This document shows, piece by piece, positions 355 through 47,900 of a DNA stretch of 64,000 bases (positions are counted from its first letter, which is position 1; each line of letters starts with the position of its first letter). The notes beneath the pieces were generated by a model, which was given only the letters and a program-made list of their open reading frames with translations, searched no databases and was not told the origin of the DNA. The stretch is from Pasteurella skyensis (lineage in GTDB: Bacteria > Pseudomonadota > Gammaproteobacteria > Enterobacterales > Pasteurellaceae): assembly GCF_013377295.1 (NCBI RefSeq), contig NZ_CP016180.1:1550001-1614000 (forward strand). The letters run 5' to 3'. The position numbers and the translations under genes were made by a program.

Positions 355-397
355 TTAATGTACTCCTTAAATTATGACTTTACTTATCAAATGAAAA

Positions 398-418
398 GGG
401 TCAAGTTAAACTTGACCC
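398..418 (-). terminator. Hairpin after potE
   Basis: A perfect 9-bp inverted repeat (GGGTCAAGT / ACTTGACCC, 3-base loop) lies just past the potE stop. On the minus strand TTTTC follows it. It is a likely intrinsic terminator, possibly a partial one, between potE and the next decarboxylase gene. Confidence 0.65.
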
Positions 419-427
419 AAAAAACTA

Positions 428-1765
428 TTATGCTTCGTCTGAAGCCTTAGCAATACCAGCATCCATTTCATCAGCCTTAATTTTTCCATAAATTACCCAG
501 CCTAAGAATGTTGCCATTCCACCCCAGTACATAGCAACCATACCACAGCTATATAATGCGTAGAAACTATAAATATTACCAATTAATGCAACAAACGTAT
601 TCATTGCCATTTGTGACTTAGGTGCATTCTCAGCACGTTGCATAGCAGCAACAGCAGCCATTGATAATACGAATGGTACTAAATTGGTTACAGCAGCTAA
701 ATCAACAATCGCACTAAACTGCTCAGCTAACTCATCACCCATTGTCATAAATGCAAGAACTGTTTGCACTACTGCTAAAATCAACATACCAGTAATAGGT
801 GCATCTTTAGCTGTTACTTTTGCAAACACTTTAGAGAAATATCCTTCATCAGCACCAGATTTGAATACTTGTGCAACAGTAAACTGCCAACCTAATAAAC
901 AACCAACACAAGCTACAACCATTGCCGCCATTACTGCTTGACCAATAGCTGGACTAAACATTTTCGCAAATACAAGACCGAATGGAGCTGTAGATTCTGC
1001 TAATTCTAAGTTAGGAACGATACCTGCCATTACGTTGGTAGAAACGATATAAATAATAGCTGTTAATGTTGTACCACCAAGTACAGCAATTGGAACGTTT
1101 TTCTCTGGATTTTCTACTGCATCAGAGTTAGCACAAGCAGATTCAAGACCTAAGAATGCCCACAATGTCATAGGAATTGAAGCACTAATTGCTTCACCAA
1201 ATGGCATATTATGTGGATTCCATGCTTCAGTATACATAGTTGGACTAAAGAAGAACCAACCGATTACAGATACTGTTAATACAGGAATAATTACACCCCA
1301 TACTGTGAAACTACCGATACGACCAGTAATTTTCGCACCACCGAAGTTAGCAACTGTAGTGATCCAAATTAATCCGATAGTTAATGCAGCACTTAAAGTT
1401 GCTGTTAAATCTATACCTAATAATACAGCAAAGTAACCAACTGCTGAAAGAGCAATTGCCACGTTTGCGATAACTAAAGACACTGCATAAGTAAAGTTTG
1501 CTAGGAAGTTTCCAGATCTACCGAAAGCATATTCAGCATAGCCTCCCATACCGCCACCTTTTTTACTAAAGCGGCCACACACAGCAAACGCATAAGCTAG
1601 TGCTAAAGAACCTCCAGCAGTCACAACCCATGATAGGATTGACATAGTACCTACTTTTGCTAATTTGGTTGGTAACATAATAATACCAGCCCCTAACATA
1701 TTAACAACTGTGATGATGGTAAGTTCTACCACTCCCATCTTATTTGATTTACCTGATTCTGCCAT
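428..1765 (-). CDS. potE: Putrescine-ornithine antiporter PotE
   Basis: This 445-residue APC-superfamily transporter is predicted to sit in the inner membrane with about 12 membrane segments. It exchanges external ornithine for the putrescine made by SpeF, and so supports acid resistance and polyamine export. The N-terminal segment carries the family pattern NMLGAGIIMLP near residues 22-32, and the length matches PotE of enteric bacteria and Haemophilus. It lies directly downstream of speF on the same strand, the classic speF-potE pair. The start at 1765 has AAGGAGA upstream. Related antiporters (AdiC, CadB) share the fold; the assignment to ornithine/putrescine rests mainly on the speF neighbour. 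Confidence 0.92.
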   Translation of the reverse strand: MAESGKSNKMGVVELTIITVVNMLGAGIIMLPTKLAKVGTMSILSWVVTAGGSLALAYAFAVCGRFSKKGGGMGGYAEYAFGRSGNFLANFTYAVSLVIANVAIALSAVGYFAVLLGIDLTATLSAALTIGLIWITTVANFGGAKITGRIGSFTVWGVIIPVLTVSVIGWFFFSPTMYTEAWNPHNMPFGEAISASIPMTLWAFLGLESACANSDAVENPEKNVPIAVLGGTTLTAIIYIVSTNVMAGIVPNLELAESTAPFGLVFAKMFSPAIGQAVMAAMVVACVGCLLGWQFTVAQVFKSGADEGYFSKVFAKVTAKDAPITGMLILAVVQTVLAFMTMGDELAEQFSAIVDLAAVTNLVPFVLSMAAVAAMQRAENAPKSQMAMNTFVALIGNIYSFYALYSCGMVAMYWGGMATFLGWVIYGKIKADEMDAGIAKASDEA

Positions 1766-1800
1766 TGTCAGTCTCCTTAAAGTAATTTAATTGATTAAAA

Positions 1801-1834
1801 AAACCTCCAATGCCGCCTCAGGCAAAAGAGGTTT
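1801..1834 (-). terminator. Intercistronic hairpin between speF and potE
   Basis: Outer arms AAACCTC (1801-1807) and GAGGTTT (1828-1834) flank a small inner GCC/GGC stem. On the minus strand the hairpin runs into a T-rich tract. It may be a partial terminator or mRNA-stabilising hairpin that sets the speF:potE ratio. Confidence 0.5.
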
Positions 1835-1843
1835 GTAAGAAAA

Positions 1844-4018
1844 TTAACTGTTCTTATCTACTACATATCCATATGCTCGAGTTGATCCATCAGCTTCTTT
1901 AGTTAAATAAACACCTTGAATTTCTGGTTCAAATCCTGGTAAGTCATTAATTCCTTGCTCTAAAGCTAAGAAATATTTCTGAGCAGCACCACCCCATACT
2001 TCACCTGGCATTACACATAGAACACCTGGAGGATAAGGTAAAGCACCTTCTGCTGCAATTTGTCCTTCAATTTCAGATAATTTAACTAATTTCACTTCAT
2101 TACGGATTAGATATTGTTGTGCTTCATTAGGGAGCATTGCCTGTTTTGGCCAGCCATGTGCACGGAACATCTCTTTCTGTAATTCTTTCATATTGTTGCT
2201 AGCATAGAAGTTATGCATTTCTTGACAAAGCTGTCTAATAGTATAGCCTTCATAAACAGATTCATTCTTCGCATAAACTGTTGGCAAGACATCTTTCATT
2301 AATGAATTCTCTTTAATGTGTCTTTCAAATTTAGCAATTTGTGCAACAAGAGACTGCATCTTAGCTAAGCTCTCTGCTGGAGTCATTAGGAATAAGATAG
2401 AGTTCAAGTCACATTTTTCTGGAACAATACCATTATCACGTAAATAGTTTGCTAACACTGTTGCAGGAATACCAAACTCTTCGTATTCACCTGTTTCAAC
2501 ATTAATACCTGGTGTTGTTAATAAGAATTTACATGGATCAACGAAGTATTGATCTTTTCCATAGTTAGCAAAAGAATGCCATTTTTCATTTGGTTCAAAC
2601 TGGAAGAAACGTCTATCATTAGCAATCATATCTGTAGGATAGTCTTGCCATAACTTACCATCAACCATTGTAGGAATAAATGGTTTAATTAATTCACAGC
2701 TCTTGAGCAATTGTTTTCTTGCTTCAATACCTACTTTCACACAGTGTTCCCAAAGTTTTTGACCTGCTCTTCCTTTATGAATACTCGCATTAATATCTAA
2801 AGACGCAAAAATCGCATAGAATGGACTTGTTGAAGCTTGAAGCATATAAGCATTATTAAAACGCTTATGATCACAATAACGTTTTTGTCCTTTGATGTGA
2901 GAATCTTTTTTATGGATTTGTGAGCTTTGTGAGAAACCTGCTTGTTGTTTATGAACTGATTGAGTAACAATGATACCTGGATCATTTTCATTTAGTTCAA
3001 GTAACATAGGAGAGCAATCACGCATCATTGGAATAAACTGCTCATAACCAACCCATGCAGAGTCAAATAAAATATAATCACATAGATGACCAATTCTATC
3101 TACTACTTGACGAGCATTGTAAATAGTACCATCATAAGTACCTAACTGAATAACTGCTAAACGGAATGGACGTTTATTCTGTGCTTTTTCTGGTGCAACT
3201 TTTTTAATTTGCTCACGGATATATTCTTCTTCAAAGCAATGATTATCAATACCACCGATAAAACCATATGGGTTACGTGCAGTTTCTAAGAATACTGGTG
3301 TTGCACCACCCATCAATAAAGCTCCTTGCTGTACTGATTTATGATTATTACGATCGAAAAGGATCAAATCATCATTTGAAAGTAAAGCACTTGTCACTAC
3401 TTTATTAGATGCTGAAGTACCATTTAATACGAAATAAGTTTTATCCGCATTAAATACTTTTGCCGCATGCTTTTGTGCTGCTAAGGCAGGACCTTCGTGG
3501 ATAAGTAAATCACCTAAACGAACATCAGCATTACATAAGTCAGTTCTGAAAAGGTTTTCACCGTAGAACTCATAGAATTGACGACCTGCAGGGTGTTTGC
3601 TGAAGAAACGTCCACCTTGGTGTCCTGGACAATCAAACGCACTATAACCTCTATCATAATACTGCTTCATTGTTCTAAAGAATGGAGGTAATACTCCTTC
3701 TTCATATTGTTGTGCAGCAGAGGTAACTTGACGCCCATACATGCCATGGTTTCTGGTTTCTCTTTGGAAAACACCTGTAAACTTAGATAAATATTCTTCA
3801 GGAACTAAGCCATCTCCCTCTACAGCAAAAAAGAGAGGAATCTCATATCCACCTAAGGATTCAAGTTTGTTTAAGGTAAAGTCAAGATCATCGTGAGTCA
3901 AAACAATTGCTGCAACTTCAGCAAAATCAGCTGTTCTAAGCTCTACTTTTTCGTATTCAGTTTCAAATAGACCTTCCAGATCCTGACTACAAGCTACTTT
4001 TAAGTAATGTTTACTCAT
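1844..4018 (-). CDS. speF: Inducible ornithine decarboxylase SpeF
   Basis: A full-length (724 residues) fold-type I PLP decarboxylase that converts ornithine to putrescine and CO2 in the cytoplasm. Residues 1 to about 105 form the wing domain and the PLP domain follows. SVHKQQAGFSQ contains the PLP-binding lysine (K357), and DSAWVGYEQF and TSPFYAIFASLD are further family motifs. The C-terminal domain includes PYPPGVLCVMPGE. The next gene on the strand is potE, its transport partner. The gene has a long AT-rich leader (4019-4763); I found no leader peptide resembling the SpeFL ornithine sensor of enterics there. GGAG lies 9-12 bases before the ATG. The identity is secure from length, motifs and context. 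Confidence 0.95.
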   Translation of the reverse strand: MSKHYLKVACSQDLEGLFETEYEKVELRTADFAEVAAIVLTHDDLDFTLNKLESLGGYEIPLFFAVEGDGLVPEEYLSKFTGVFQRETRNHGMYGRQVTSAAQQYEEGVLPPFFRTMKQYYDRGYSAFDCPGHQGGRFFSKHPAGRQFYEFYGENLFRTDLCNADVRLGDLLIHEGPALAAQKHAAKVFNADKTYFVLNGTSASNKVVTSALLSNDDLILFDRNNHKSVQQGALLMGGATPVFLETARNPYGFIGGIDNHCFEEEYIREQIKKVAPEKAQNKRPFRLAVIQLGTYDGTIYNARQVVDRIGHLCDYILFDSAWVGYEQFIPMMRDCSPMLLELNENDPGIIVTQSVHKQQAGFSQSSQIHKKDSHIKGQKRYCDHKRFNNAYMLQASTSPFYAIFASLDINASIHKGRAGQKLWEHCVKVGIEARKQLLKSCELIKPFIPTMVDGKLWQDYPTDMIANDRRFFQFEPNEKWHSFANYGKDQYFVDPCKFLLTTPGINVETGEYEEFGIPATVLANYLRDNGIVPEKCDLNSILFLMTPAESLAKMQSLVAQIAKFERHIKENSLMKDVLPTVYAKNESVYEGYTIRQLCQEMHNFYASNNMKELQKEMFRAHGWPKQAMLPNEAQQYLIRNEVKLVKLSEIEGQIAAEGALPYPPGVLCVMPGEVWGGAAQKYFLALEQGINDLPGFEPEIQGVYLTKEADGSTRAYGYVVDKNS

Positions 4019-4230
4019 TTTAGTTTACTCCACATTGGTTGATTAACATTTTTGTGAAAAAATCATATACCATGGCTTGATTATATTCTCTATTTTTTTA
4101 TTTTTCCAGATCTATTTTAATAAATATTAATTATATTTTTAATTACTTATTTTTTATTAATAAATTTCAAACAAAAAATTACATTTTTATAAAATTTGTT
4201 ACATTTTTTCTTTTAGAATAACATCATTAT

Positions 4231-4320
4231 TTTATATAACTACAAATTTTTTTGTTAAAAAAATGTTATATAAAACCCAAAATATAACAACTCTAAAAAA
4301 TAAGCAAATCGTTATATAAC
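4231..4320. repeat. Three GTTATATAAC-like palindromes upstream of speF
   Basis: TTTATATAAC (4231-4240), GTTATATAAA (4265-4274) and the perfect palindrome GTTATATAAC (4311-4320) lie within 90 bp. They could be regulator half-sites, overlapping -10 elements for speF, or an accident of the very AT-rich composition. Confidence 0.4.
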
Positions 4321-4692
4321 AATGCAATACAACACCTAAAGCATCTAGCTTAAAATAATATTCAACCACAAAAGTAACACTATATCCTTATGTTTAAATT
4401 TTATTGATTAAAAATAAACTAAGATAAAATAAAAAAACATATTGTTTATTTTATACATTTAGATATGAAAACTAAAAAATGCCGTTATTAAATATATTTA
4501 TTCATTATTTAATTCATTTATTTTGTTATATCATTGTTCATATATATTCCAACTAAACTACCGCATTTAATATTCTAGAACCACCATCAAAAACTACAAA
4601 CAAACTACATATGTGTCGGACATATTGAGCATACGTTAAAGTGTTCATAATAAGCTCTTTCAAATTATATTAAATTTATCTCAAATTAATAC

Positions 4693-4721
4693 TTGCATAA
4701 TTATGCAAAAAACCTTACTAT
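4693..4721 (+). promoter_or_regulatory. artP promoter with overlapping ArgR-like box
   Basis: TTGCATAATTATGCAA (4693-4708) is a perfect 16-bp palindrome matching the ARG-box pattern TGnATnnnnATnCA. It overlaps the -35 hexamer TTGCAT (4693-4698) of a sigma-70 promoter whose -10 is TACTAT (4716-4721) after 17 bp. Arginine-bound ArgR would therefore block polymerase, as expected for an arginine uptake operon. Confidence 0.7.
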
Positions 4722-4763
4722 CTATTCAACAAAACATATTTACATATAGGATTTTATTCAGAA

Positions 4764-5492
4764 ATGGCGATTCAAATTAACAATGTCAATTTTTTTTATG
4801 GTTCAACACAAGCCCTATTTGACATTAATTTAAACATTGAACAAGGTGATACAGTTGTATTACTTGGCCCCAGTGGTGCAGGAAAAAGTACACTAATTCG
4901 TACGCTTAACTTAATTGAAGCGCCAAAGTCAGGAATACTTAAAATTGGAGATCGTCAATTTGATCTTGCAAATAAACTAGATAATAAACAAATTGCATTA
5001 TTACGCAGAGAAGTGGGAATGGTATTTCAACAGTATCATTTATGGCCTCACTTAAATGTAATGCAAAATTTAACTGAAGCACCAATGAAAGTACTTGGTC
5101 TTTCCAAAACCGAAGCAACTGAAAGAGCAAAAGGATTATTATCTCGATTACGTCTTGAAAACTTTTCAGATCGTTTTCCATTGCAACTTTCTGGTGGACA
5201 GCAACAACGTGTTGCTATTGCCAGAGCTTTAATGATGCAACCTGAAGTATTATTGTTTGATGAACCAACAGCAGCTTTAGATCCTGAAATTACAGCTCAA
5301 ATTATTGGAATAATAAAAGAATTAACAAACACAGGTATTACTCAAGTAGTCGTTACTCACGAAGTATCCTTTGCGAAAAAAATTGCAACTAAAGTAGTTT
5401 ATATGGAGCAAGGTAAAGTTATTGAGTTTGGAGATTCTAATTGTTTCAATAATCCAAAAACAAGTGAGTTCGCAGCTTATCTTTCTCACTAA
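4764..5492 (+). CDS. artP: Arginine ABC transporter ATP-binding protein ArtP
   Basis: This 242-residue ATPase powers arginine import by the ArtPIQM system. Walker [10 protein letters not shown] is at residues 35-43, the signature LSGGQQQR near residue 143, and Walker B plus D-loop [11 protein letters not shown] follows. Length and order match the H. influenzae and E. coli art operons. It is the first gene of a four-gene plus-strand operon, 32 bp ahead of artI, and an ArgR-like box sits on its promoter. Paralogous polar amino-acid ATPases (HisP, GlnQ) look similar; the operon make-up supports ArtP. Confidence 0.93.
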
Positions 5493-5524
5493 TACATTTT
5501 TATTAAACATAAGGACACAACATT

Positions 5525-6247
5525 ATGAAAAAATTACTACTAACAGCACTATTCGCTACAACAGCTCTTTCTGTTACAGCAAAAGATACTATCACTTTTG
5601 CGATGGAAGCAACTTATGCACCTTTTGAAACAACAAATGAAAAAGGAGAAATTGTTGGCTTTGATGTTGATCTTGCAAAAGCTCTATGTACAGAGTTAGA
5701 CGCAACTTGTGAATTTAAAAATACCTCTTTCGATAGTTTAATTCAAAGTTTGAAATTTAAAAAATTTGATGCCATTATTTCTGCGATGGATATTACTGAA
5801 AAACGTCAAAAGCAGGTTGCATTCACAGCACCATACCTTGAAAATTCAGCTAGCTTTATGACATTAAAAGGAAAAGATCTAAAAGAAGTTAAAGTAGTAG
5901 GAGTACAAAATGGTTCTACTTATCAAGAATACTTAATCAAAAAAGGATCTCAATATAAATTAAAACCTTACAGTACATTACAAAATGCTGTCTTGGATCT
6001 CAAAAATGGACGTATTGATATGATATTTGGTGATACTCCAGTACTCTCGAAATGGCTGGAAACTGAAGATTCTATAACTCTCACTGATAAGAAAGTGAAA
6101 GACAAAGATTTCTTTGGTATCGGATATGGCATTGCAGTGAATAAATCGAATACCACATTACTTGAAAAATTAAATACTGCATTAAAAACAGTAAAAGAAA
6201 ACGGTACATTAGATAAAATTTACAAAAAATGGATTACTAAAAAATAA
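5525..6247 (+). CDS. artI: Arginine-binding periplasmic protein ArtI
   Basis: A 240-residue solute-binding protein (SBP_bac_3 family) with a signal peptide in about residues 1-19 (hydrophobic core LLLTALFATTALSVTA) and predicted periplasmic location. The mature part begins with TITFAMEATYAPFE and shows GFDVDLAKALC and the closing EKLNTALKTVKENGTLDKIYKKW typical of the family. It captures arginine for the ArtQM permease. Its stop codon overlaps the artQ start (TAATG). The ligand is inferred from the operon; related proteins bind lysine, ornithine or histidine. Confidence 0.9.
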   Translation: MKKLLLTALFATTALSVTAKDTITFAMEATYAPFETTNEKGEIVGFDVDLAKALCTELDATCEFKNTSFDSLIQSLKFKKFDAIISAMDITEKRQKQVAFTAPYLENSASFMTLKGKDLKEVKVVGVQNGSTYQEYLIKKGSQYKLKPYSTLQNAVLDLKNGRIDMIFGDTPVLSKWLETEDSITLTDKKVKDKDFFGIGYGIAVNKSNTTLLEKLNTALKTVKENGTLDKIYKKWITKK

Positions 6248-6918
6248 TGTCTATTGATATTTTTAACTCCTTTGTCTCAGCAACATTAGTTACACTAATG
6301 CTTGCTGTGGCAAGTTTAATGATCGGATTAATACTTGCTATTTTATTTGTTGTACTTGAAATGAATAAAATCACGTTGATTCGCCAAAGCACCAGTGTAT
6401 TCATTACACTACTACGTGGATTACCTGAAATTCTTATCGTATTTCTTATCTATTTTGGTTTGACACAACTTTTATTCCTTCTTACTGATGAATTTATTGA
6501 ATTCGATGCCTTTTGGTGTGGTGCAATAGCTTTAGGTATTATTTTTGCTGCCTATGCTTCACAATCACTACGTGGTGCAATTAAAGCCATCCCTCTTGGA
6601 CAGTGGGAGTCAGGTGCTGCGTTAGGTTTTAGCCGAGCTCAAACTTTCATCACCATTATTATGCCTCAAGTATGGCGACACGCTTTACCTGGATTAAGTA
6701 ATCAATGGTTAGTACTATTAAAAGACACTGCTCTGGTATCATTAATTGGAGTCAGTGATCTGATGCGACAATCAGAATTAATCAATGCATCCACCCACAA
6801 ACCATTCACTTGGTATAGTATTGCAGCGTTGGTCTATCTTTTGATTACGCTCATTAGTCAATTTTTTATTAGAAAATTAGAGCTGCGTTTTACTCGTTTT
6901 GAAAGAGGAAATCAATAA
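6247..6918 (+). CDS. artQ: Arginine ABC transporter permease ArtQ
   Basis: This 223-residue inner-membrane permease has about five membrane segments and the His/Glu/Gln/Arg permease loop around residues 110-145 (QWESGAALGFSRAQTFITII, then PQVWRHALPGLSNQW). It forms the translocation pore with ArtM. It overlaps artI by one base at its start and artM by one base at its end, so the genes are probably translationally coupled. Confidence 0.92.
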   Translation: MSIDIFNSFVSATLVTLMLAVASLMIGLILAILFVVLEMNKITLIRQSTSVFITLLRGLPEILIVFLIYFGLTQLLFLLTDEFIEFDAFWCGAIALGIIFAAYASQSLRGAIKAIPLGQWESGAALGFSRAQTFITIIMPQVWRHALPGLSNQWLVLLKDTALVSLIGVSDLMRQSELINASTHKPFTWYSIAALVYLLITLISQFFIRKLELRFTRFERGNQ

Positions 6919-7604
6919 TGTTGTGGGATTATTTTATCACTATTTCGCAAGGGATTAGCGCCAGTTTACAGCTTACTGTAATATCCTTACTCATTGCATT
7001 TATTATTGCTGTTGGCTTCACTTTTTTACTATCGATGGAAAATACAGTCATTAAACTATTCGTCAATATGTTTATTACCGCCTTTACTGGTACTCCTCTG
7101 CTCATCCAATTTTTCCTTATTTATAGCGGACCAGGGCAATTCCAATGGATTATCGATAGCCCATTGTGGTATTTCTTATCAGATGCATGGTTTTGTGCTA
7201 TTTTAGCTCTTGCACTCAATAGTGCAGCTTACTCAACACTGTTATTTCACGGTGCAGTAAAAGCTATTCCAAAAGGACAATGGGAAGCGTCTTTTTCTTT
7301 AGGTTTAAGCCGTTTACAAACACTTAAAATTTTAATTCCTTATGCCTTAAAAAGAGCATTACCTTCTTACAGCAATGAAATTATTCTAGTATTCAAAGGG
7401 ACATCCCTTGCCTCTACTATCACCATTATGGATATTATGGGGTATTCTCGTCAACTATACGGTATGGAATATGATGCGATCGCTATCTATGGTACAGCAG
7501 GTGTTATCTACTTAATCATTACAGGTATAATGACACTATTACTACGTAAAGTAGAAAACACTGTATTGGGATTTGAACGCTTTGAAGTTGAAAAAAAAGC
7601 ATAG
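6918..7604 (+). CDS. artM: Arginine ABC transporter permease ArtM
   Basis: The second permease subunit (228 residues) and last gene of the operon. It carries the same permease-family loop (QWEASFSLGLSRLQTLKILI, then PYALKRALPSYSNE) and about five hydrophobic segments. Its start overlaps the artQ stop (TAATG). The ATPase-contacting loop aligns with that of ArtQ, as expected for a heterodimeric pore. A strong hairpin terminator lies 40 bp downstream. Confidence 0.92.
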   Translation: MLWDYFITISQGISASLQLTVISLLIAFIIAVGFTFLLSMENTVIKLFVNMFITAFTGTPLLIQFFLIYSGPGQFQWIIDSPLWYFLSDAWFCAILALALNSAAYSTLLFHGAVKAIPKGQWEASFSLGLSRLQTLKILIPYALKRALPSYSNEIILVFKGTSLASTITIMDIMGYSRQLYGMEYDAIAIYGTAGVIYLIITGIMTLLLRKVENTVLGFERFEVEKKA

Positions 7605-7644
7605 CGGTACGATCAGTATCAAAATTTACAAATTTTAAAATATA

Positions 7645-7671
7645 AAAAAGGGAGCGTTATACTCCCTTTTT
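7645..7671. terminator. Bidirectional terminator between artM and grxD
   Basis: Arms AAAAAGGGAG (7645-7654) and CTCCCTTTTT (7662-7671) enclose a 7-base loop. A-rich and T-rich arm ends let it work for both converging genes. Confidence 0.9.
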
Positions 7672-7678
7672 AGTTATG

Positions 7679-8008
7679 TTAGATTGAACTCGTTTTTTCT
7701 GCTACTTCTTTTAACAAAGTTTGTAGTTCACCCTTTTGATACATTTCCAAAATAATATCACAGCCCCCTACTAGCTCTCCATCTACCCACAATTGTGGAA
7801 AAGTTGGCCATTGAGCATATTTAGGTAACTCAGCTCTAATATCAGGATTAGTTAAAATATCTACATAACCAAAAGGAACCTGACACCCCATTAATGCTTC
7901 TACTGCTCGCGCTGAAAAACCACAAGAAGGGAATTTTGGAGATCCTTTCATATAAATAAGAATAGGATTTTCACCAATTTGCTTCTTAATTTTTTCAATT
8001 GTTTCCAT
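7679..8008 (-). CDS. grxD: Monothiol glutaredoxin 4
   Basis: This 109-residue monothiol glutaredoxin has the CGFS active site (KFPSCGFSARAVEAL) and the glutathione-binding WPTFPQLWVDGELVGGCDI segment. The family binds a bridging [2Fe-2S] cluster with glutathione, often with BolA partners, and takes part in iron-sulfur trafficking. I start at METIEKI (8008), 6 bases after AGG. An ATG one codon earlier is also possible; an upstream in-frame TTG at 8020 has no support. The gene stands alone on the minus strand. Confidence 0.93.
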   Translation of the reverse strand: METIEKIKKQIGENPILIYMKGSPKFPSCGFSARAVEALMGCQVPFGYVDILTNPDIRAELPKYAQWPTFPQLWVDGELVGGCDIILEMYQKGELQTLLKEVAEKTSSI

Positions 8009-8134
8009 CATAAACCTCAAATTATAAACAGATCACCATTTTAGCAAATTTTTATCAAAATCGCACCGCTTATCCTCAATTTAGACAAACTTTAAAAAGA
8101 GGATTACACTCAATTTATGCATTTATATCTCTTT

Positions 8135-12093: not shown

Positions 12094-13022
12094 TTACCAA
12101 CTCCTTTTATTTAGAAAATCTTTTATAAACATAATCTTATGGTATTTGGTTAAACCATTATGATTAGATAGTTTTCGTTTAAGTTCTCCAAATAAACTTT
12201 CAAGCCTATTTGTTGTTTTTTCTATATTTAATTCAGGATATTTTTCAAAAGTAAATAAATAATCCATATTATATTTTAAGCTCCTGTAAGCACTTCTTAT
12301 ATTACGATGTTTAAAAGGATATTTACCCTTTTCATTTATTTTATCGGAGCGTTCATTTAAATATTCTTTATGTTTTAAATACCAATAATGTAAATTAATA
12401 TAGAACTCGTTTTTAGAGCTATTTTTTAATGTTTTAACTAATATTTTTAGCTCTTTTCCCGCTTCAGATTTAGGGTTCCTTGTTAATTTCCTTATTACAT
12501 TTGTTATTTGATGAAATTGGCAAAGTTGTGCAGGCGTATTTAAAAAATCTCTTAATAATCCTCGTCTTCCATCACAAGTAATAGATTGAATAATATAGCC
12601 TTTTTCTCTTAATTTATTCATTGCTAATAGATAATAAAGATTTTTTTCTGTTGTCACAATTTGATGATAAATTACCTTCTTTGATAAAGTGTCCATAAAA
12701 ACGAGAACACCAAAATTTCGACCAAAGAAAGTGGTATCCATCATTAAGTTCAATTTATTATTTTGTGGGATATTTAATGGCGTTTTAGGGGCTTTTAAAA
12801 CATATCTTTGAATAGTTCTAACAGAGCAATTATATTTAATTGCTAGTTGCTTATAGGTTTGTTTACCTTCTGTGTAATCTAGCCAAATTTGGCTTGAATT
12901 TAAGGATTTTTTGAAGGTAAAAGTTTTATTACAAATAGAGCATTTATAACGTTGAACATTATTTTGGGTACCATATTTGTGAATATTCGTTTTATGACAA
13001 AAAGGACAAGTTTTTTATTCAT
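12094..13022 (-). CDS. IS transposase, with start codon and body in different frames
   Basis: The uninterrupted frame runs from about 13014 to the stop at 12094. It encodes a zinc ribbon (CPFC near its start, CSIC about 19 residues later), a helix-turn-helix region (YKQLAIKYNCSVRTIQRY) and a DDE catalytic core (first D in MMDTTFF, second in CDGRRG, E in NRLESLF). No ATG exists in this frame before MMDTTFF; a TAA at 13017-13015 closes it upstream. The natural ATG at 13022 reads M-N-K-K and is one base out of frame across a run of six A's. Seven A's would join it perfectly to TCPFC. This is either a frameshift mutation or slippage-controlled expression. Confidence 0.75.
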
Positions 13023-28456: not shown

Positions 28457-28846
28457 TTATTTTTTAACTTGTAATGCTTCGACTAAAGTTTGTAAGGTCT
28501 TAATTTCACGCTCTTTTTCGCTCAGTAATTCGTCTTTATGGATAAGGGTGAGTTTTAGTTTCTCAATTTCTGCGGTAAGTTCTTGTGATGAACCATAATA
28601 ATTGCTGCTGTGAGTACTATTTTCACTGACTAAACAAATAACACTTTTATCGCTCACTGATAATAATTCGACTAAATCCATATCAAACACTTTGGCAATT
28701 TTTTCTAATTTATCTAAATGTAATCCTGTTTCACCACGCTCAATTTTGGCATAGCCATTGGTAGACATTGCTAATTTATCTGCCATATCCTCCTGTGACC
28801 AATTATGTGTTTCACGCACCATTCGGATTTTTTCATTTACTTTCAT
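28457..28846 (-). CDS. XRE-family regulator, second of a tandem pair
   Basis: This 129-residue protein has an N-terminal helix-turn-helix (residues about 4-60: WSQEDMADKLAMSTNGYAKIERG) and a C-terminal coiled-coil-like region (EIEKLKLTLIHKDELLSEKEREIKTLQTLVEAL). The start is ATG 28846 behind AAGGGCA; an upstream in-frame ATG lacks a ribosome site. It is nearly identical to the gene at 28863-29252 through the DNA-binding half, and a few changes cluster in the C-terminal half. Gene spacing of exactly 406 bp shows a tandem duplication. Target genes are unknown; the small genes upstream are candidates. Confidence 0.85.
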   Translation of the reverse strand: MKVNEKIRMVRETHNWSQEDMADKLAMSTNGYAKIERGETGLHLDKLEKIAKVFDMDLVELLSVSDKSVICLVSENSTHSSNYYGSSQELTAEIEKLKLTLIHKDELLSEKEREIKTLQTLVEALQVKK

Positions 28847-28862
28847 TTTATTGCCCTTTTTA

Positions 28863-29252
28863 TTATTTTTTTGATTGTAATGTTTCAACTAAAGTTTGAA
28901 GTGTTTTGATTTCTCGCCCTTGTTGAGCTAATAATTCTTCTTTATGAATAAGGGTAAGTTTTAGTTTCTCAATTTCTGTACTTAACTCTTGTGATGAGCC
29001 ATAATAATTACTGCTATTAGTACTATTTTCATTAACTAAACAAATAACACTTTTATCGCTCACTGATAATAATTCGACTAAATCCATATCAAACACTTTG
29101 GCAATTTTTTCTAATTTATCTAAATGTAATCCTGTTTCGCCACGCTCAATTTTGGCATAACCATTGGTAGACATTGCCAATTTATCTGCCATATCCTCCT
29201 GTGACCAATTATGTGTTTCACGCACCATTCGAATTTTCTCATTTACTTTCAT
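28863..29252 (-). CDS. XRE-family regulator, first of a tandem pair
   Basis: The upstream copy (129 residues) has the same helix-turn-helix core and coiled-coil tail as its twin, differing mainly after residue 85 (for example SNYYGSSQELSTEIEKLK, then EELLAQQGREIK). The start is ATG 29252 behind AAGGGCA. It is 16 bp upstream of its twin's start codon region, so both are probably co-transcribed. Such pairs may form heterodimers or antagonise each other; this is inference. It is divergent from a small-protein gene at 29464. Confidence 0.85.
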   Translation of the reverse strand: MKVNEKIRMVRETHNWSQEDMADKLAMSTNGYAKIERGETGLHLDKLEKIAKVFDMDLVELLSVSDKSVICLVNENSTNSSNYYGSSQELSTEIEKLKLTLIHKEELLAQQGREIKTLQTLVETLQSKK

Positions 29253-29463
29253 TGTATTGCCCTTTATGTATATCAATCAGCATTTTGCATTGTATTTAAT
29301 TCATCTGTAAAAGTAAACTGATTTAGATTTTGTGTGGGTAATGTTTAGTTTTTGGGAGGGTTAGAGGGAATAGTTGTTTGTGTTTAAAAAATAATAAAAA
29401 GGTATGATCTCAGCTAGGGCTTAATTCAATAGCAATATTATTAATTTTTTATGGAGGTTAGTT

Positions 29464-35138: not shown

Positions 35139-35942
35139 TTATTCTAAAATATAAACTTCCGTTGTATGATGAGGCTTCTGTTCTTCCTCTGGAGGAAGCG
35201 TCATATAATCGCCATAATACATTGTTAAATGTTCGTGATATCCTTTCATTACAGGGTATTTCTCACCCTCAAAGTCAACATAAACTACATCATCAAAATA
35301 GTTTTTCGGCATATAAGATTTTTTCCAACCACCATAATCAGATAACACTAAACCTATATGGTCAGCTTTTTCAATAGGATAGTTTTTTTGAAACAGAGTT
35401 AAATTTTCTGTCATTTTATTAAACAAATAATGGGATAAAGTTGAAAAGATCTTACCGCTTATAGATCCCTCTTTTGCTCTTTTCCATCTTTTTTTACAAG
35501 AAGAAAACCGTAATTTAAGGCGTCTGTGCTTTTTCATCATTTTATAAAGAATATCTGGATTATTTGGTACAGCATCATAAATGAAAATATCAATAAAAAT
35601 ACCTGATTTTCTACCTTTAGGATCAACTAAGAGGGTGTTTTCATCAAAAATTTTAGTCATTTCTCCACAAAATTGCCCCTCAATATCTTCCGCAAGAGAA
35701 ATACTATACTGTTTATGGTCATTTTGACTTTGCCAAATATTTACAAACTTTTGGTATTCATCACGACACATATAAACATCAATATCATCATCCCAAGGAA
35801 TAAAACCGCTATGACGAATTGCACCTATTAAAGTGCCACCACCTAAAGAGTAGACGATATTATTCTCTCTACAAATCATATCAAAATATTTCAATATATC
35901 TAATGCAATTAGTTGATGCTCTCTTAAATTAATTTTTTTCAT
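35139..35942 (-). CDS. licD: Phosphorylcholine transferase LicD
   Basis: A 267-residue LicD-family protein that transfers phosphocholine from CDP-choline to lipopolysaccharide sugars. The family core is clear near residues 30-60: IVYSLGGGTLIGAIRHSGFIPWDDDIDVYMCRDEY, a nucleotidyltransferase-fold metal site with the DDD run. It is the last gene of the lic operon and overlaps licC by 14 bp. The acceptor sugar is unknown; LicD variants differ in acceptor. No other LPS glycosyltransferase is nearby. Confidence 0.92.
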   Translation of the reverse strand: MKKINLREHQLIALDILKYFDMICRENNIVYSLGGGTLIGAIRHSGFIPWDDDIDVYMCRDEYQKFVNIWQSQNDHKQYSISLAEDIEGQFCGEMTKIFDENTLLVDPKGRKSGIFIDIFIYDAVPNNPDILYKMMKKHRRLKLRFSSCKKRWKRAKEGSISGKIFSTLSHYLFNKMTENLTLFQKNYPIEKADHIGLVLSDYGGWKKSYMPKNYFDDVVYVDFEGEKYPVMKGYHEHLTMYYGDYMTLPPEEEQKPHHTTEVYILE

Positions 35943-36636
35943 TCTTTTTTCCTACTAAATTATTCAAAATAAAATTATATTGAATTAAATTATCCATTTC
36001 ATATCCCTCTGATAACGGTATTTGCTCAGTAGTGACATTGAGTTCTTGAATTATTTCCATTGGAATATTATCCCAATAAAGTTTAGGGTTTAATAAGGTA
36101 TCTTTTTCAAGATAATTCATAAACTCGTCCTTTATTTTGTCACAATCAGGTTTTGCCCAATAAGAAATACCGAGTAAACTTGGTTCGCACTCGTTGGTTA
36201 CTTTAATTTGTCTCACCTTGTTTGATGATAATACTGGCACCCATTCTTTATCACTACTATTAGGGCGTTCTATTACAAAATAACAACTTTGCTCTCGTTG
36301 TTTTTTAAAGATATTTTTAAATAACACAACATCGGAATCGATCACATAGCTATTATTAAAATAATTCATTGCCTGATAAAAAGAGTAAATATTATTATAT
36401 TCACGGTATTTATCATTTTTTAACAAGTGGCAACCATATTTATCGGATAAATAACTAAATTGCTCTGCAAGATGTCCTGTAACAATATAAATATCCGTAA
36501 TTCCTGCTTCGTGTAGATATATAATCGTTCTTTCAATATTAGGAATACCATTGATAGGTAACAGTGCTTTATGTGTTTTTTGTGTAATATCTTTAAAGCG
36601 ACTGCCTAATCCTGCTGCTAATATAATCGCATTCAT
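35929..36636 (-). CDS. licC: CTP:phosphocholine cytidylyltransferase LicC
   Basis: This 235-residue sugar-nucleotidyltransferase-fold enzyme makes CDP-choline for LicD. The N-terminus MNAIILAAGLGSRFKDITQKTHKALLPINGIP holds the nucleotide loop and signature lysines, and YVIDSDVVLF near residue 100 is a metal-binding motif. It overlaps licB by 4 bp and licD by 14 bp, so the operon is tightly coupled. Confidence 0.92.
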   Translation of the reverse strand: MNAIILAAGLGSRFKDITQKTHKALLPINGIPNIERTIIYLHEAGITDIYIVTGHLAEQFSYLSDKYGCHLLKNDKYREYNNIYSFYQAMNYFNNSYVIDSDVVLFKNIFKKQREQSCYFVIERPNSSDKEWVPVLSSNKVRQIKVTNECEPSLLGISYWAKPDCDKIKDEFMNYLEKDTLLNPKLYWDNIPMEIIQELNVTTEQIPLSEGYEMDNLIQYNFILNNLVGKKNEKN

Positions 36637-37547
36637 AATTTTTCTCGCTTATCTTTGAGGGTAATAGTTGTACCTACAACAACTCCTATTGTGAGCAGTA
36701 CTATTGATATATTCATTTCTGTTCTTCCCAATATCACACTTAGTAACACAATCCAAAATCCATAAGTGATATTTAACATCATTGCTCTAATTGGTTTAAT
36801 CAAATAAATGGCTTGATAATAAAGCAAATAAGAGAGCATTGAAGAAGAAAATATAAGACCTAACAGAAAAACAAAATGAGACTCTGTAAAGGATTTAAAC
36901 AGTGTGGCGGTATCTAATTCAAAAAAGAACAACAAAAACAAATAACCTAAACTCGCCCCTAGCTGTCTAAAAAAATACACAACAGTAGAGGGTAAAAACT
37001 GCATTACATAAGATGAAAGCACAATCTCTGCTCCCCAACTTAATGCACTAATAAAGGCAAGCCCTACGCCGAATAATAAAATTTGTGAAGAACTCAAATC
37101 AAGGCTTAATAAAAGTGTGCAAAATATCGCTATACTAAAACCGATAATTCCCCACTTTGTCATACGCTCTTTTAAAAATAGAAAAGATAATAATGCCCCA
37201 AATACAGGATAAAGAGATGAAATAGGGGCTGCATAGCCCACACCAATATAACTGATTGCTTGTAAGTAGCAAAACATTCCAACTGGACCACCGATTAAAC
37301 CTGCAATTACTGCTAGTATACCTACTCGTTTATGCTTTATTAATTTATGATGTTGCGGTACTTTTTTATAGCAAAGTAACCCAGCAAATAATAAAGAACC
37401 ACTTTCAATCAAAAAAAGTAGTGATAATATAATCACTAAGGAAGTAACAAAGGGATAATCTTCATTTAATACTTCATATAGAATCCCGGTGACACCCCAG
37501 AGCAAGCCTGATAATAGACCGAATATATAACCGTGATATTTTACCAT
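36633..37547 (-). CDS. licB: Choline permease LicB
   Basis: A 304-residue EamA/DMT-superfamily transporter with about ten membrane helices, the usual size for LicB. It shows the family opening GLLSGLLWGVTGILYEVL and the second repeat GVGLAFISALSWGAEIVLSS. In the lic1 system it imports host choline. The substrate is inferred from its position between licA and licC. Confidence 0.9.
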   Translation of the reverse strand: MVKYHGYIFGLLSGLLWGVTGILYEVLNEDYPFVTSLVIILSLLFLIESGSLLFAGLLCYKKVPQHHKLIKHKRVGILAVIAGLIGGPVGMFCYLQAISYIGVGYAAPISSLYPVFGALLSFLFLKERMTKWGIIGFSIAIFCTLLLSLDLSSSQILLFGVGLAFISALSWGAEIVLSSYVMQFLPSTVVYFFRQLGASLGYLFLLFFFELDTATLFKSFTESHFVFLLGLIFSSSMLSYLLYYQAIYLIKPIRAMMLNITYGFWIVLLSVILGRTEMNISIVLLTIGVVVGTTITLKDKREKL

Positions 37548-38440
37548 TCACAATTCTCTTGTTCTTTCCAGTTTTTCATAAATTGAATGGCTCTCTCAAT
37601 TCTTATTTGTCCGTAATCATCAAAAAATTCGTTATTTTCTTCTTTTACTAATGTCCAAATAAACCATAAAATATCTTGTGTGAATTGATATAAATGAATT
37701 TTTTTCAATAACTCGCCATCTTCTTCTCCATCAAAATAGTGGTGTAAGAAAAAGGCTTGCTCTTCTTCATTTAATTTTGATTCAAGTAAAAAAGCAGCAA
37801 TATCAAACATAGGATCATTCATTCCTGAATATTCCCAATCAATAAAATAAACTGATTGTTGTTTAAGTAAAATATTTTCAGGTACAAGATCATTATGACA
37901 AGGTACTAGTACTTTGTTATTAGTTAAGTAAGAACTGATAGATTTCAAAAATAGGAGTAAATCAGGAATATCTTTACTATATTCATAAAATGAATACTTA
38001 TTTTTTAACAATCCAATATATTTATCTAATTCATTGAAAACATTGAACTCATTAGCAAATTTAACAGTACTACAATGTAATTTTTTTAAAGTTTTGGCAA
38101 TAAGCTCTAAATTAGAATGTGCTTTGATTGTGGTATGATCTAATGCTGTGCTATCTGATAGATATTTAGTAATCTTGATACCTGAATTAGCATCAATAAA
38201 GCAGGTTTCAACATTAAAATGTTGCTCTGACATTAATAAACTATTAACAGATTCATAATCTCGTTCAATGAGTCTTTCTGTCATTGCGCCTGGTATACGA
38301 ACAACAACATAGTCTATGTGTTTGTTTTCTATACAAACCAAATAATTTTTATTTGTCATTCCACCTAAAAACGAAATATCTTTTATTGCAGAAAATGGCA
38401 GAGCTAAATTTTCTCGAACTATTTTTATGATTTCTTTCAT
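37541..38440 (-). CDS. licA: Choline kinase LicA
   Basis: A 299-residue choline/ethanolamine kinase-family protein that phosphorylates choline. The N-lobe reads ISFLGGMTNKNYLVCIENK. The catalytic Brenner motif VPCHNDLVPENILL near residue 190 is followed by YFIDWEYSGMNDPMFDIAAF. It is the first gene of licABCD. Unlike lic1 of H. influenzae, the start region and upstream 200 bp contain no CAAT or other tetranucleotide tract, so the usual phase-switch mechanism is not visible. Confidence 0.93.
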   Translation of the reverse strand: MKEIIKIVRENLALPFSAIKDISFLGGMTNKNYLVCIENKHIDYVVVRIPGAMTERLIERDYESVNSLLMSEQHFNVETCFIDANSGIKITKYLSDSTALDHTTIKAHSNLELIAKTLKKLHCSTVKFANEFNVFNELDKYIGLLKNKYSFYEYSKDIPDLLLFLKSISSYLTNNKVLVPCHNDLVPENILLKQQSVYFIDWEYSGMNDPMFDIAAFLLESKLNEEEQAFFLHHYFDGEEDGELLKKIHLYQFTQDILWFIWTLVKEENNEFFDDYGQIRIERAIQFMKNWKEQENCEW

Positions 38441-43405: not shown

Positions 43406-43962
43406 TAAGCCCGTCCTGCTTTCGCTAACAACATATCAATGCCAAGCAACTGATTCGCCTCATTCCAACGATCCATATAACCTGTTTCAAATAAAGTCTT
43501 TTCATTACTCGGTGCAACAATCCAATAGTTACGTGCAATTTCTTGCTCTAATTGTTCAGGAGCCCACGTAGCACAACCTAAACACGCTAAAAATTTTTCA
43601 GGGGCATTAGGTTTTCCTAACACATCTAAAATATCACTCGAAACAGTCATCATCACATTAGGTGAAATTTGCTGACTTTGCGCAAAATGTTGTGAAGTTT
43701 GGGTATGCAAAATAAAACCTCTATCTTGCTTCACAGGCCCTCCACTCAAAACAATTTGATCTTTGGTATAATCACGCTGATTTGCCATTAAAAAATCCAT
43801 TTTAGCCAATAATTCCATTACTGAAAGATCCGTTGGTACTGTGATCATTAGTCCCATAGAACCCTCACTATTATGCTCACAGATATAAATGACAGAACGC
43901 TCAAAATAATCATCGTCCATATCAGGTGTTGCAATTAAAAAGTGATTTTTCAAATTCATCAT
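43405..43962 (-). CDS. yqgE: UPF0301/AlgH family protein YqgE
   Basis: This 185-residue protein begins [31 protein letters not shown] and contains [11 protein letters not shown] and [16 protein letters not shown], the hallmarks of UPF0301/AlgH. The biochemical role is unknown. I choose ATG 43962 (or 43959), which overlaps the rsmE stop, over an upstream in-frame start. It lies between rsmE and ruvX, the conserved neighbourhood in gammaproteobacteria. Confidence 0.9.
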
Positions 43963-44696
43963 TCGCTTAAATCCCCAAAACAAAGTTGCAAAGCAGTAAT
44001 CGCAGCCAGTGATGCAGTTTCCGTTCTTAATACTCGTTTTCCTAATAGCACTTCTGTAAATCCTTGTTGTTCTGTCATCGCAATTTCATCAGCCGACAAC
44101 CCACCTTCTGCACCAATCAACAGACGAACACCTGCTTGTGGCACAGTCGTTAATTGCTTAATACCTTGTTTGGCTCGTGGATGTAAATTTAATTTCAGCA
44201 TTTCATCTTGTTCCTGACACCAATCTGTCAGTTTCATTATCGGACGAATTTCAGGAATAGTGTTACGCCCGCACTGCTCACAGGCTGCAATCGCAATTTT
44301 TTGCCACTGCTGTAATTTTTTACCTTGACGATCGCTATCTAACTTAACACCACAACGCTCCGACCAAAGAGGAGTAATTACATTCACACCTAATTCAACG
44401 GATTTTTGAATGGTAAATTCCATACGATCGCCACGAGAAATCACTTGCCCCAAATGAATCGGAAAATGAGATTCACGATCATCAAAAGTTTGCGATAAAA
44501 TCTCAACTTCAACACGTTTTTTAGTGGTTTCCGTAATCACAGCGTCAAAAGTGTGGCTCGAACCATCAAACAGGATCAACTCCTGCCCCACATTCATACG
44601 CAATACACGCCCAACGTGATTCGCTGCGTCCTCACTCAAACTACATTCTTTTTTCCCTGCTAATGGTGCTGGGTGGTAAATTCTTGGTTTTCTCAT
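43959..44696 (-). CDS. rsmE: 16S rRNA m3U1498 methyltransferase RsmE
   Basis: A 245-residue SPOUT-fold methyltransferase. The N-terminal PUA-like domain ([30 protein letters not shown]) precedes the knot domain with [16 protein letters not shown] and [18 protein letters not shown]. It is first in the rsmE-yqgE-ruvX-ribF run on the minus strand. The gap upstream to the nuclease-helicase gene (44697-44855) holds no clear feature. Confidence 0.95.
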
Positions 44697-44855
44697 TGTT
44701 ATTATATTTTCTCTAAAATTATTTATCTTCTATAAATCTCATCTAGAATTTTACTTGCTCAAGCTAGCAACTCATTAATATTTTGGTATATATTCTAAAT
44801 AGTATACTATTACCATTTTTTCCATTATTATGTCTTGTTGTACTAAATATAATAA

Positions 44856-46730
44856 TTAAAGAGCAAACAAACCTGCAATTATAGAAAATAGCTCAGCACC
44901 TAAAACTATAAACTCACCAGTCTCTTTTAACTTTTCTCTAGAAGGCTTTGGTAAATTTGTTAATTTTGATAATCCTTTTAAAGTGTTTTCTTCATTATCA
45001 CAATTTTCATCCATATTTTTAGTACTGTATTTCTTCAATATATTTACTACTTCTTCTATCTTACTACTAATATTCTGCTCACTAATAGATAAATAAAGAT
45101 TTTTTTGAGATCTTGTTATAAGTACATAGATTTTTCTAAAAAATATATTTTTATCGGAATTATAAGATGTATGTAAAAAACTATTAAAACTATGAATAAT
45201 AATATTTTTTGCTTCAAGACCTTTGACTGATTGCATAGTCATCACTCTAATAACATCATCTTTATTAATTTTTCTTACAATATCTTCAATTATTGCTTTT
45301 TGATTTTTTGAATGTGTTAAAACTATTGTTTCTTCTTTTTGCTTTTTAAGTAAATTTTCTAAGTCTATAAATTTATCCCAATCATCAATATAAATATTTC
45401 CATCCTCTAATACACAATTTATATCATTTAAAAAATCATTATTTAAATATTTTGCTCTTTTATAATATTGATTTATCTTTGTATCTTTAGATAGAATTTC
45501 AAAAGCACATTTTGATATATTCGAAGGTGTTCTATAAACATTCTTAAGATTTTTAACCCTACCTTGCATTGAAATTTTTTCAAATTTAGGATGATGGAAA
45601 ACCTGAGCAATACTATCCATAGAATATGGATAAAATTTTTGAGCTTCATCTATAAAAAAAATACAATCTTGAATTTCTTCATAAATTAGGCGAATAAATG
45701 CTTTTGGCATATCTTGTGTTTCATCACAAATAACATAATCTATTGGGTTGAATTTTAAATATTCTTTTAGTTTTTTTCTAAATTCTGAAATAGCAACATC
45801 CCCTTCAAAGACTTCAAATTTATCTTCTATATAGCTATTTTCATCCAACCCTATCCTTTTATAATCAAATTTTATTTCTTTTAAAAAACCTAAAATAGAT
45901 TTTATATTTATATTTTTCTTATATTTATTTTCTTCAAAAATATTTTCTAAATTGTTGACTAATTTTTTATTAAAACATAAAACTAAAAATTTCTCACTAC
46001 AATCTTTATGTAATCTATTATTAATAAAATGACTTAAAATTACAGTTTTACCAGTACCAGCAACACCTCTAATAATTCTAAATCCATCAGTATAGCCATT
46101 TAAAACACTTAACTGTTTATGGTCAAAAAAAAGTATTTCATCATTACTGATGATTGGTAATATTTTATCTTTTGTTTTTGCAATTTTTTTCTTATCTATC
46201 AATAAGGATGCAACCTCTAAAAACTGTTTTTTATTTGGTAAACATGTCACTTGAGTCTTAAAAAATCTTTTGAAATTTTCTTTTGCCTGTAAATCTTCTT
46301 TAAAGAAAGAATTAATTTTATATGCATTTAAACTCGCGTGTTCTTTAAAAAACTCTCTAGCATCTTCATAAGTTAAAGAAGGGAATATAATTCTAAACTC
46401 TACATTAATAGGCACTTCACCTAGCCTATCTTTAATTTTTCCTAATAACAAATTACGATATTGTTTTGCTTGTTCAAAGGGATTATTTTTACTTATATCT
46501 AATTTAGTCCAATTCTTAACTTCAATAACAAATATTCCATATACAGGATGTAGAAGAATAACATCAACTTCTCTACTTGAATTAAAATCTTCAATTTGAA
46601 TTTTAGGAAGAATAAAAAAATTACTATATTTTCCTTTCCCTTTTAGTAATTTTGTTATTGCTTCTATTACTTCAACTTCTCCATTATTTCCTTTTGATAT
46701 TCTTTGAAAAACATTTAATAAAGATTTCAT
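44856..46730 (-). CDS. NERD nuclease - SF1 (UvrD-like) helicase fusion, candidate defence protein
   Basis: This 624-residue protein begins with a NERD nuclease domain (residues about 14-120): NGEVEVIEAI, then SREVDVILL with D56 and FVIEVKNW with E70 and K72, the PD-(D/E)xK-like set. A superfamily 1 helicase follows: Walker A RGVAGTGKTV (222-229), Walker B YVICDETQDMP (DETQD 336-340), GRVKNLKNVYRTP, VMTMQSVKGLEAKNI and VLITRSQKNLYLS as motif VI. The C-terminus is hydrophobic (FIVLGAELFSIIAGLFAL), a possible membrane anchor. AGGAGCAAGG precedes the start. It lies directly after mraY with no terminator seen. Function is unproven; a host DNA-repair role is the alternative. Confidence 0.8.
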   Translation of the reverse strand: MKSLLNVFQRISKGNNGEVEVIEAITKLLKGKGKYSNFFILPKIQIEDFNSSREVDVILLHPVYGIFVIEVKNWTKLDISKNNPFEQAKQYRNLLLGKIKDRLGEVPINVEFRIIFPSLTYEDAREFFKEHASLNAYKINSFFKEDLQAKENFKRFFKTQVTCLPNKKQFLEVASLLIDKKKIAKTKDKILPIISNDEILFFDHKQLSVLNGYTDGFRIIRGVAGTGKTVILSHFINNRLHKDCSEKFLVLCFNKKLVNNLENIFEENKYKKNINIKSILGFLKEIKFDYKRIGLDENSYIEDKFEVFEGDVAISEFRKKLKEYLKFNPIDYVICDETQDMPKAFIRLIYEEIQDCIFFIDEAQKFYPYSMDSIAQVFHHPKFEKISMQGRVKNLKNVYRTPSNISKCAFEILSKDTKINQYYKRAKYLNNDFLNDINCVLEDGNIYIDDWDKFIDLENLLKKQKEETIVLTHSKNQKAIIEDIVRKINKDDVIRVMTMQSVKGLEAKNIIIHSFNSFLHTSYNSDKNIFFRKIYVLITRSQKNLYLSISEQNISSKIEEVVNILKKYSTKNMDENCDNEENTLKGLSKLTNLPKPSREKLKETGEFIVLGAELFSIIAGLFAL

Positions 46731-46817
46731 TTTCCTTGCTCCTAAATTTACATCGTATGATTTAAGCTACAATCAACTATCAAAATATCATTTCTATTTT
46801 TTAACGTAATATTTGTA

Positions 46818-47900
46818 TTATCTCAACTTCAACGTCACTAACCCCACCAACACCAACATCAAAGTAATAATCCAAAATCGCATAATTACACGTGGTTCTG
46901 GCCAGCCTTTGAGTTCAAAGTGATGATGAATAGGTGCCATTCTGAAAATACGTTTTCCTCGTAGTTTAAATGACCCAACTTGTAAAAGAACAGAAAGGGT
47001 TTCTACGACAAACACACCGCCCATAATAACAAGTAACAATTCTTGACGAACTAAAATTGCGATAACGCCCAATGCTCCGCCTAATGAAAGTGAGCCGACA
47101 TCGCCCATAAAGACTAATGCGGGGTAGGTGTTGTACCATAGGAAGCCAAGCCCTGCACCAACAATGGCGGTACACACAACAGCTAATTCACCACTAAATT
47201 TGATAAATGGAATATGTAAATATTGAGCGAAGTTGATATTCCCTGTTGCCCACGCAATCAAACCGAATGCAGCTGCAACCATAATAGTTGGGACGATGGC
47301 TAGACCGTCTAAGCCGTCTGTTAAGTTTACGGCATTACTCGTACCCACGATCACAAAATAACCTAAAACAATGTAAAAAATCCCTAACTGTGGCATAAAT
47401 TCTTTAAAGAATGGTACGACTAATTGTGTTGCGGCGGTGTCTTTACCGATAGCGTACATACCAAAAATTGCCACTAATGCGATGACTGAAAGCCAAAAAT
47501 ATTTCCAGCGAGCGATTAAACCATCAGTGCTTTGACGTGTGATTTTCCAGTAATCGTCCACAAAACCAACTACGCCATAGCCAAAGAGAACGAACATCAC
47601 AAACCACACATAAGGGTTGGCTAAATTTGCCCATAATAGAACACTTACACCAATTGCAAACAGAATAATAATTCCGCCCATTGTTGGTGTGCCACGCTTT
47701 TTATAATGGCTTTCTGGTCCATCGTGACGTACTTCTTGTCCAAATTTTAAGATTTGTAAACGACGAATAACTTTTGGTCCAATCCATAAACCAATCCCCA
47801 TAGCGGTTAATAACGCCATAATGGCACGAAATGTAATATATGAAACTACGTTAAACGCAGTGTTATATTGCACTAAATATTCTGCAAGCCAAACTAACAT
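46818..47900 (-). CDS. mraY: Phospho-MurNAc-pentapeptide translocase MraY
   Basis: A 360-residue integral membrane enzyme that forms lipid I on undecaprenyl phosphate. Ten membrane helices are expected. Family motifs: [14 protein letters not shown] near residue 73, FVDDYWKI (catalytic aspartates) near residue 115, [13 protein letters not shown] near residue 190, [15 protein letters not shown] near residue 265, and [19 protein letters not shown] near the end. It overlaps murF by 7 bp. In the usual cluster murD follows; here the next gene is the NERD-helicase. Confidence 0.97.

Follow-up and report, generated by a model that had tools for sequence, protein, structure and literature searches.

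Nhi of Staphylococcus epidermidis combines a nuclease and a helicase in one polypeptide. The NERD nuclease domain (PF08378) is found in Nhi-like systems, which consist of a single gene (from Millman et al. 2022), and in Mokosh type I defence systems (PMC10952713). Phage SSB activates several helicase-nuclease defences, namely Nhi, Hna, AbpAB, and Hachiman (PMC10732053). NERD and UvrD have also been linked to CRISPR systems, as they are on a list of putative CRISPR auxiliary genes (Altae-Tran 2023, PMC10910872). Finally, the fused nrn-corA genes of relatives of A. butzleri, and the wyl genes in such loci, have been described (PMC10600005).

We analysed a 64,000-nucleotide stretch of the chromosome of Pasteurella skyensis ("the window"), which includes a gene for a fusion of a NERD nuclease and an SF1 helicase (Table 1). 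Our best explanation, which we consider likely, is that this gene is an autonomous, Nhi-like nuclease-helicase that acts against phages or plasmids, and that it was acquired horizontally from a Campylobacterota-type gene pool and swapped into a hotspot between mraY and rsmE.

Table 1. Features of the NERD-helicase gene and of the slot that it occupies. Positions are those of the window, and residues are those of the 624-aa protein.
Feature	Position	Strand	Evidence
NERD nuclease-SF1 helicase gene, 624 aa	44856..46730	minus	ORF list, Pfam/PADLOC, conservation in relatives
NERD PD-(D/E)XK nuclease domain, residues 13-108 (E18, D56, E70, K72)	46407..46694	minus	Pfam PF08378
SF1 UvrD-like helicase core, about residues 200-560	45051..46133	minus	PF09848, alignment, Foldseek
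Walker A GVAGTGKT, residues 222-229	46044..46067	minus	ORF translation, alignment
Walker B DETQD, residues 336-340	45711..45725	minus	ORF translation, alignment
Conserved hydrophobic C-terminal helix EFIVLGAELFSIIAGLFAL, residues 606-624	44859..44915	minus	hydropathy, pairwise identity, AF2
mraY, left border of the hotspot	46818..47900	minus	ORF list
87 bp between the mraY stop and the NERD-helicase gene, with ribosome-binding site	46731..46817	minus	
24 nt left over from an earlier cargo of the slot, the 3' end of a DUF4357 (GIY-YIG-like) gene	44723..44746	minus	nucleotide match
rsmE, right border of the hotspot	43959..44696	minus	ORF list

The open reading frame is intact. It starts with ATG, an AGGAG ribosome-binding site lies just upstream, and the gene is single-copy in the 2.25-Mb genome. 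The original prediction, which was made from the DNA sequence alone, was that a NERD nuclease and a UvrD-like helicase are joined in one protein. This was borne out, as both domains have Pfam matches above the cut-offs (PF08378, 47.7 bits versus a cut-off of 22.1, residues 13-108; and PF09848, 40.1 bits versus 24, residues 219-403). A match to UvrD_C_2 at residues 494-547 was slightly below the cut-off (25.3 bits versus 27.4). The positions that had been given for D56, E70, and K72 and for both Walker motifs were all correct, and helicase motifs I-VI are readable in the alignment (GVAGTGKT, DETQD, FIDEAQ, NVYRTPSNI, TMQSVKGLE, and YVLITRS). The catalytic residues of the NERD domain are kept in every relative whose sequence spans the region. 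Relatives at 43-61% identity have kept both the active site and the helicase motifs, so this architecture is not due to chance.

Pfam identifies both domains and Foldseek identifies the SF1 core; the AlphaFold (AF2) model is mediocre (pLDDT 66, pTM 0.42). The top Foldseek matches of the model were UvrD, PcrA, Upf1, and Gabija; the global TM-scores are uninformative, and we took only the assignment of the SF1 core from this model. Among solved structures, nothing matched the single sequence, and a profile gave only a weak match to an F-box helicase.

The gene is far more AT-rich than its surroundings, as the original prediction had suggested from its codons. It has a GC content of 23.5% and a GC3 of 11.8%, while the surrounding dcw, rsmE, valS, nrdA, and ribF genes are 35.6-42.1% GC. 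This composition matches that of the homologous genes from Arcobacter (21-22% GC). In a survey at the level of species, with one genome for each, we found the gene in just 1 of 140 genomes from the family; the 139 genomes that lack it include three species from the same genus. So its presence varies between species, and it is neither universal in the family nor does it have a housekeeping phylogeny.

A sample of 398 genomes from the phylum contained only distant NERD or helicase proteins, with partial matches at 24-38% identity. Scanning contigs with the single protein gave nothing, but a three-sequence alignment found six relatives. The close relatives (43-61% identity) are nearly all from Campylobacterota (Arcobacter plasmids, Hydrogenimonas, Campylobacter, Sulfurovum, and Helicobacter); the only other one, besides the host, is from a Lysobacterales metagenome bin. 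The nearest relatives, at 59-61% identity, are on Arcobacter plasmids. In a phylogenetic tree, the protein is sister to two Arcobacter proteins (support of 1.0) and not to proteins from its own phylum. Given its position in the tree, its matching composition, and its absence from the rest of the family, the sequence data indicates that this gene was acquired horizontally. We did not find a relative in viral contigs or phage records, so a phage-borne origin is not obvious.

Each of the four species of the genus has mraY next to rsmE, but the intervening genes differ. The NERD-helicase gene is the sole cargo in P. skyensis. The slot contains a complete Hachiman system in one sister species (G114, L014; 282 bits for HamA and 785 bits for HamB) and a complete Kiwa system in another (G112, L013; 243 bits for KwaA and 352 bits for KwaB). 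Besides Kiwa, the slot of G112 has genes for a DUF1016 nuclease and for DUF4357 and AlbA_2 proteins. In the third (G113, L012), the slot contains a DUF1016 nuclease, a fragment of HsdS, an AlbA_2 protein, and a DUF4357 protein (the DUF1016 and DUF4357 genes were named from their near-identity to the genes in G112). Thus, examining the neighbours for a defence island, as had been proposed, uncovered two known defence systems that occupy this slot in sister species.

The slot also retains a trace of its previous contents. Just before rsmE, downstream of the NERD-helicase gene, is a 24-nt scar that is identical (24/24 nt, E = 1.6e-8) to the end of the DUF4357 gene from G112, including its stop codon (L013:6198-6221). 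The same region is 90% identical to G113 over 39 nt. On the other side, the 87-bp gap is unlike the sequence from the three sister species from the stop codon of mraY onward. The scar beside the gene implies that an earlier cargo was replaced. A scan for promoters and terminators did not rise above the chance level. Overall, the genomic context gives good support for a role of the gene in defence, and the mraY-rsmE gap is a defence hotspot of this genus, with cargo that turns over between species.

The original prediction also placed this gene at a breakpoint in the dcw cluster. It is indeed flanked by mraY and rsmE, and the remainder of the cluster (murD to lpxC) is at 13-24 kb of the window, about 23 kb away. 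However, the gene does not mark the breakage, because the junction predates it. In a genome from another genus (G115), mraY and rsmE are joined, with 78 bp between them and no insert, so the split of the cluster is older than the insertion of the NERD-helicase gene. This rules out that the insertion broke the cluster. In the other genomes of the family that we sampled outside the genus, these two genes are distant from each other or on separate contigs.

We noticed some other features near these genes. The stretch that separates the parts of the split dcw cluster contains a lic1-like operon (licD, licC, licB, and licA by inspection; window 35139-38440), which is presumably for phosphorylcholine incorporation. 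We did not find a tetranucleotide repeat array in this stretch. Two tandem copies of a 406-bp unit, which are 90% identical, are at 28457-29265. An AT-rich (26% GC) transposase-like ORF (12094-12753) lies beside lpxC, where the far part of the cluster ends. In G115, whose genus shares the mraY-rsmE junction, a gene for a DUF1016-like nuclease lies between yqgE and ruvX (L090:512-1537). The whole block around yqgE/ruvX and mraY-rsmE may attract defence genes.

The neighbourhoods of the relatives point to immunity as well. Three relatives (L002, L003, and L031) are encoded in type III CRISPR loci, but the gene from the window is not. On the Arcobacter plasmid CP134857, the homologue is flanked by genes for a WYL regulator and for a DHH-CorA fusion; beyond DHH-CorA are a Cmr (III-B) operon, Cas1, and Cas2, and there is a gene for a Card1-like nuclease nearby. 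On pACLO from A. cloacae, the homologue heads a Csm (III-A) locus. In Sulfurovum, a gene for a Card1-like nuclease is followed by the homologue and then by the start of a gene that matches the N-terminus of DHH-CorA, so the gene order Card1-like nuclease, NERD-helicase, DHH-CorA recurs there.

Other relatives have different surroundings. The homologue from Campylobacter concisus is near an integrase-bearing island, and the one from a rumen Campylobacter is solitary between housekeeping genes. When we searched the draft genomes of these two Campylobacter for the palm domain of Cas10, we found only sub-threshold matches, and the ones that we inspected were GGDEF response regulators. (GGDEF proteins contaminated this search across the relatives' genomes.) The only match that looked like Cas10, among those inspected, was from the Helicobacter host and was on another contig than the homologue. 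The relative in Helicobacter sp. 11-8110 (L034:6798-8741) is split into two ORFs of 395 and 240 amino acids, which is possibly a frameshift or a phase-variable state.

The host of the window gene has two CRISPR loci. A type III-B Cmr locus (L109:6275-14622, or G000:C1 about 404774-413121) is about 1.2 Mb from the NERD-helicase gene, and its cmr1 is split into two frames. At the end of this locus is a gene for a 311-aa protein that contains hydrophobic segments and has no match in PADLOC. The other locus is of type I-F, and between its cas1 and cas2-3 is a 1245-aa ORF, also with no match in PADLOC (L094:6114-9851, or G000:C1 about 1634113-1637850).

Could the protein be an accessory effector of type III CRISPR, one that requires signalling by Cas10 or the sensing of target RNA and that serves the host's Cmr system in trans? 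Three relatives are in type III contexts, two of them adjoining the signalling effectors DHH-CorA and Card1-like nuclease; NERD and UvrD are among the putative CRISPR auxiliary genes mentioned above; and the host has its own III-B locus. Nevertheless, we think that this is unlikely. A Pfam search of the protein did not identify a CARF, SAVED, or other known nucleotide-sensing domain, and in C. concisus, in the rumen Campylobacter, and in P. skyensis, the gene is outside of any CRISPR locus. The two Campylobacter have no detectable Cas10 in their draft genomes, and the split in cmr1 also argues against a role for the host's Cmr system. Cas10 is present in 14 of the 140 genomes from the family, so its co-occurrence with our gene in this host is weak evidence. 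We consider it very improbable that the protein is instead a helicase-nuclease for DNA repair or plasmid maintenance that rides on mobile elements and has no immune role. The slot holds defence systems in sister species, several relatives lie beside genes for CRISPR effectors and not beside genes for replication or repair, and the transfer of a single gene to the chromosomes of other phyla is a better fit to immunity. These observations outweigh, in our view, that SF1 UvrD-like helicases are common in repair, or that relatives are found on plasmids and adjoining an integrase or a TraG-like gene.

A third alternative concerns the C-terminus. The original prediction described a hydrophobic C-terminal stretch, which is real: residues 606-624 are the most hydrophobic 19-mer of the protein (Kyte-Doolittle hydropathy of 2.01). 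In the family alignment, the tail is conserved past a variable linker, with a pairwise identity of 0.49 versus 0.25 in the preceding linker. Since this segment is at the extreme C-terminus, it could be an anchor, and a membrane-tethered nuclease-helicase could attack DNA where the phage enters. However, the tail is only about 19 residues long, its hydropathy is borderline (1.56-2.01 in seven members of the family), and a Glu or Gln is conserved in its middle. In one relative (L033), the tail is charged and amphipathic (hydropathy of 0.59) and is clearly not transmembrane. The AF2 model has a helix at 606-623, but with a confidence below 50. So the case for the tail as a transmembrane anchor is not convincing, the description of this protein as membrane-linked is not supported, and we rate tethering as rather improbable. 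It is at least as likely, and we would say probable, that the helix mediates oligomerisation or docking, on its flexible linker, rather than spanning the membrane.

We return to our preferred explanation, an autonomous defence gene. The original prediction of a one-gene defence system combined two ideas. The defence context is supported by the hotspot, by the relatives in type III loci, and by the pattern of horizontal transfer. Action by one gene is likely: because the two Campylobacter hosts carry the gene alone and have no detectable Cas10 in their draft genomes, the NERD-helicase can probably act alone. On the other hand, we counted it against autonomy that both P. skyensis and the Helicobacter host carry a type III system elsewhere in the genome.

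We infer a role in phage defence, along with a DNA target, a trigger, autonomous action, and a role for the tail, from motifs and genomic context. In such a system, the SF1 motor would load on free or single-stranded ends, or on replication intermediates, of the invading DNA. It would then translocate using ATP, which would deliver the fused NERD PD-(D/E)XK domain to the DNA for cleavage. The invader would be degraded, or replication would be halted in the infected cell. The hydrophobic helix at the C-terminus, on its flexible linker, would probably allow the enzyme to oligomerise or to dock. Replication intermediates are a plausible trigger because related helicase-nuclease defences are activated by phage SSB (PMC10732053).

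These results link an unstudied gene of type III CRISPR islands (those with DHH-CorA and Card1-like nucleases) to a free-standing copy in a hotspot of another phylum. This makes it possible to test cleanly whether nuclease-helicases that are associated with CRISPR provide immunity by themselves. Also, the mraY-rsmE hotspot is a place to look for further defence systems.

How does this protein compare to known systems? It is a nuclease-helicase fusion of the Nhi type, as the original prediction proposed, with the NERD and SF1 helicase domains in one protein. It shares with Nhi-like systems the intact catalytic residues, the patchy distribution, and the location in a defence slot, so both the nuclease-helicase type of defence with a NERD domain and the defence context are the same. 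This likeness is one of domain content and context, and the conserved hydrophobic tail and the association with type III and CorA are features of our family. In contrast to Nhi of S. epidermidis, the protein does not match PADLOC's model of Nhi (at E<=1), and just 1 of 8 relatives matches it, weakly (3e-6).

The best match in PADLOC is to C3a187 or "NERD+UvrD" (7e-25, 85.8 bits), a model without a curated cut-off that matches 8 of 8 family members. C3a187 has the same pair of domains, but our family is divergent: only residues 55-413 of the protein align, to positions 47-400 of the 559 in the profile. The C3a series are probably clusters that are associated with type III CRISPR, as C3a116 matches the DHH part of DHH-CorA. 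GajB of Gabija has the same SF1 helicase core, and the Gabija AB complex is among the Foldseek matches, but PADLOC's GajB model gives the protein a score of just 25 bits. Unlike GajB, the protein has its own nuclease domain and no GajA partner, and its neighbours are mraY and rsmE. The closest homologues are housed in the type III-B CorA islands of Arcobacter (with DHH/NrN-CorA, WYL, and Cmr), while the gene from the window is outside any CRISPR locus.

We tentatively suggest that proteins with NERD, an SF1 helicase, and this C-terminal helix could form a distinct immune family, although we see this as a possibility and would not bet on it. Such proteins might serve as a partner in the type III/CorA islands of Campylobacterota and also stand alone, and the tail might help the enzyme to assemble or to localise, perhaps to the membrane, unlike what has been described for Nhi or Gabija. 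"Nhi-like" systems with NERD and a helicase are already known, as is the NERD+UvrD model of PADLOC. What is new is a Campylobacterota-centred family that has a conserved C-terminal helix, is linked to type III CRISPR and CorA, and is present here as an orphan in a chromosomal hotspot.
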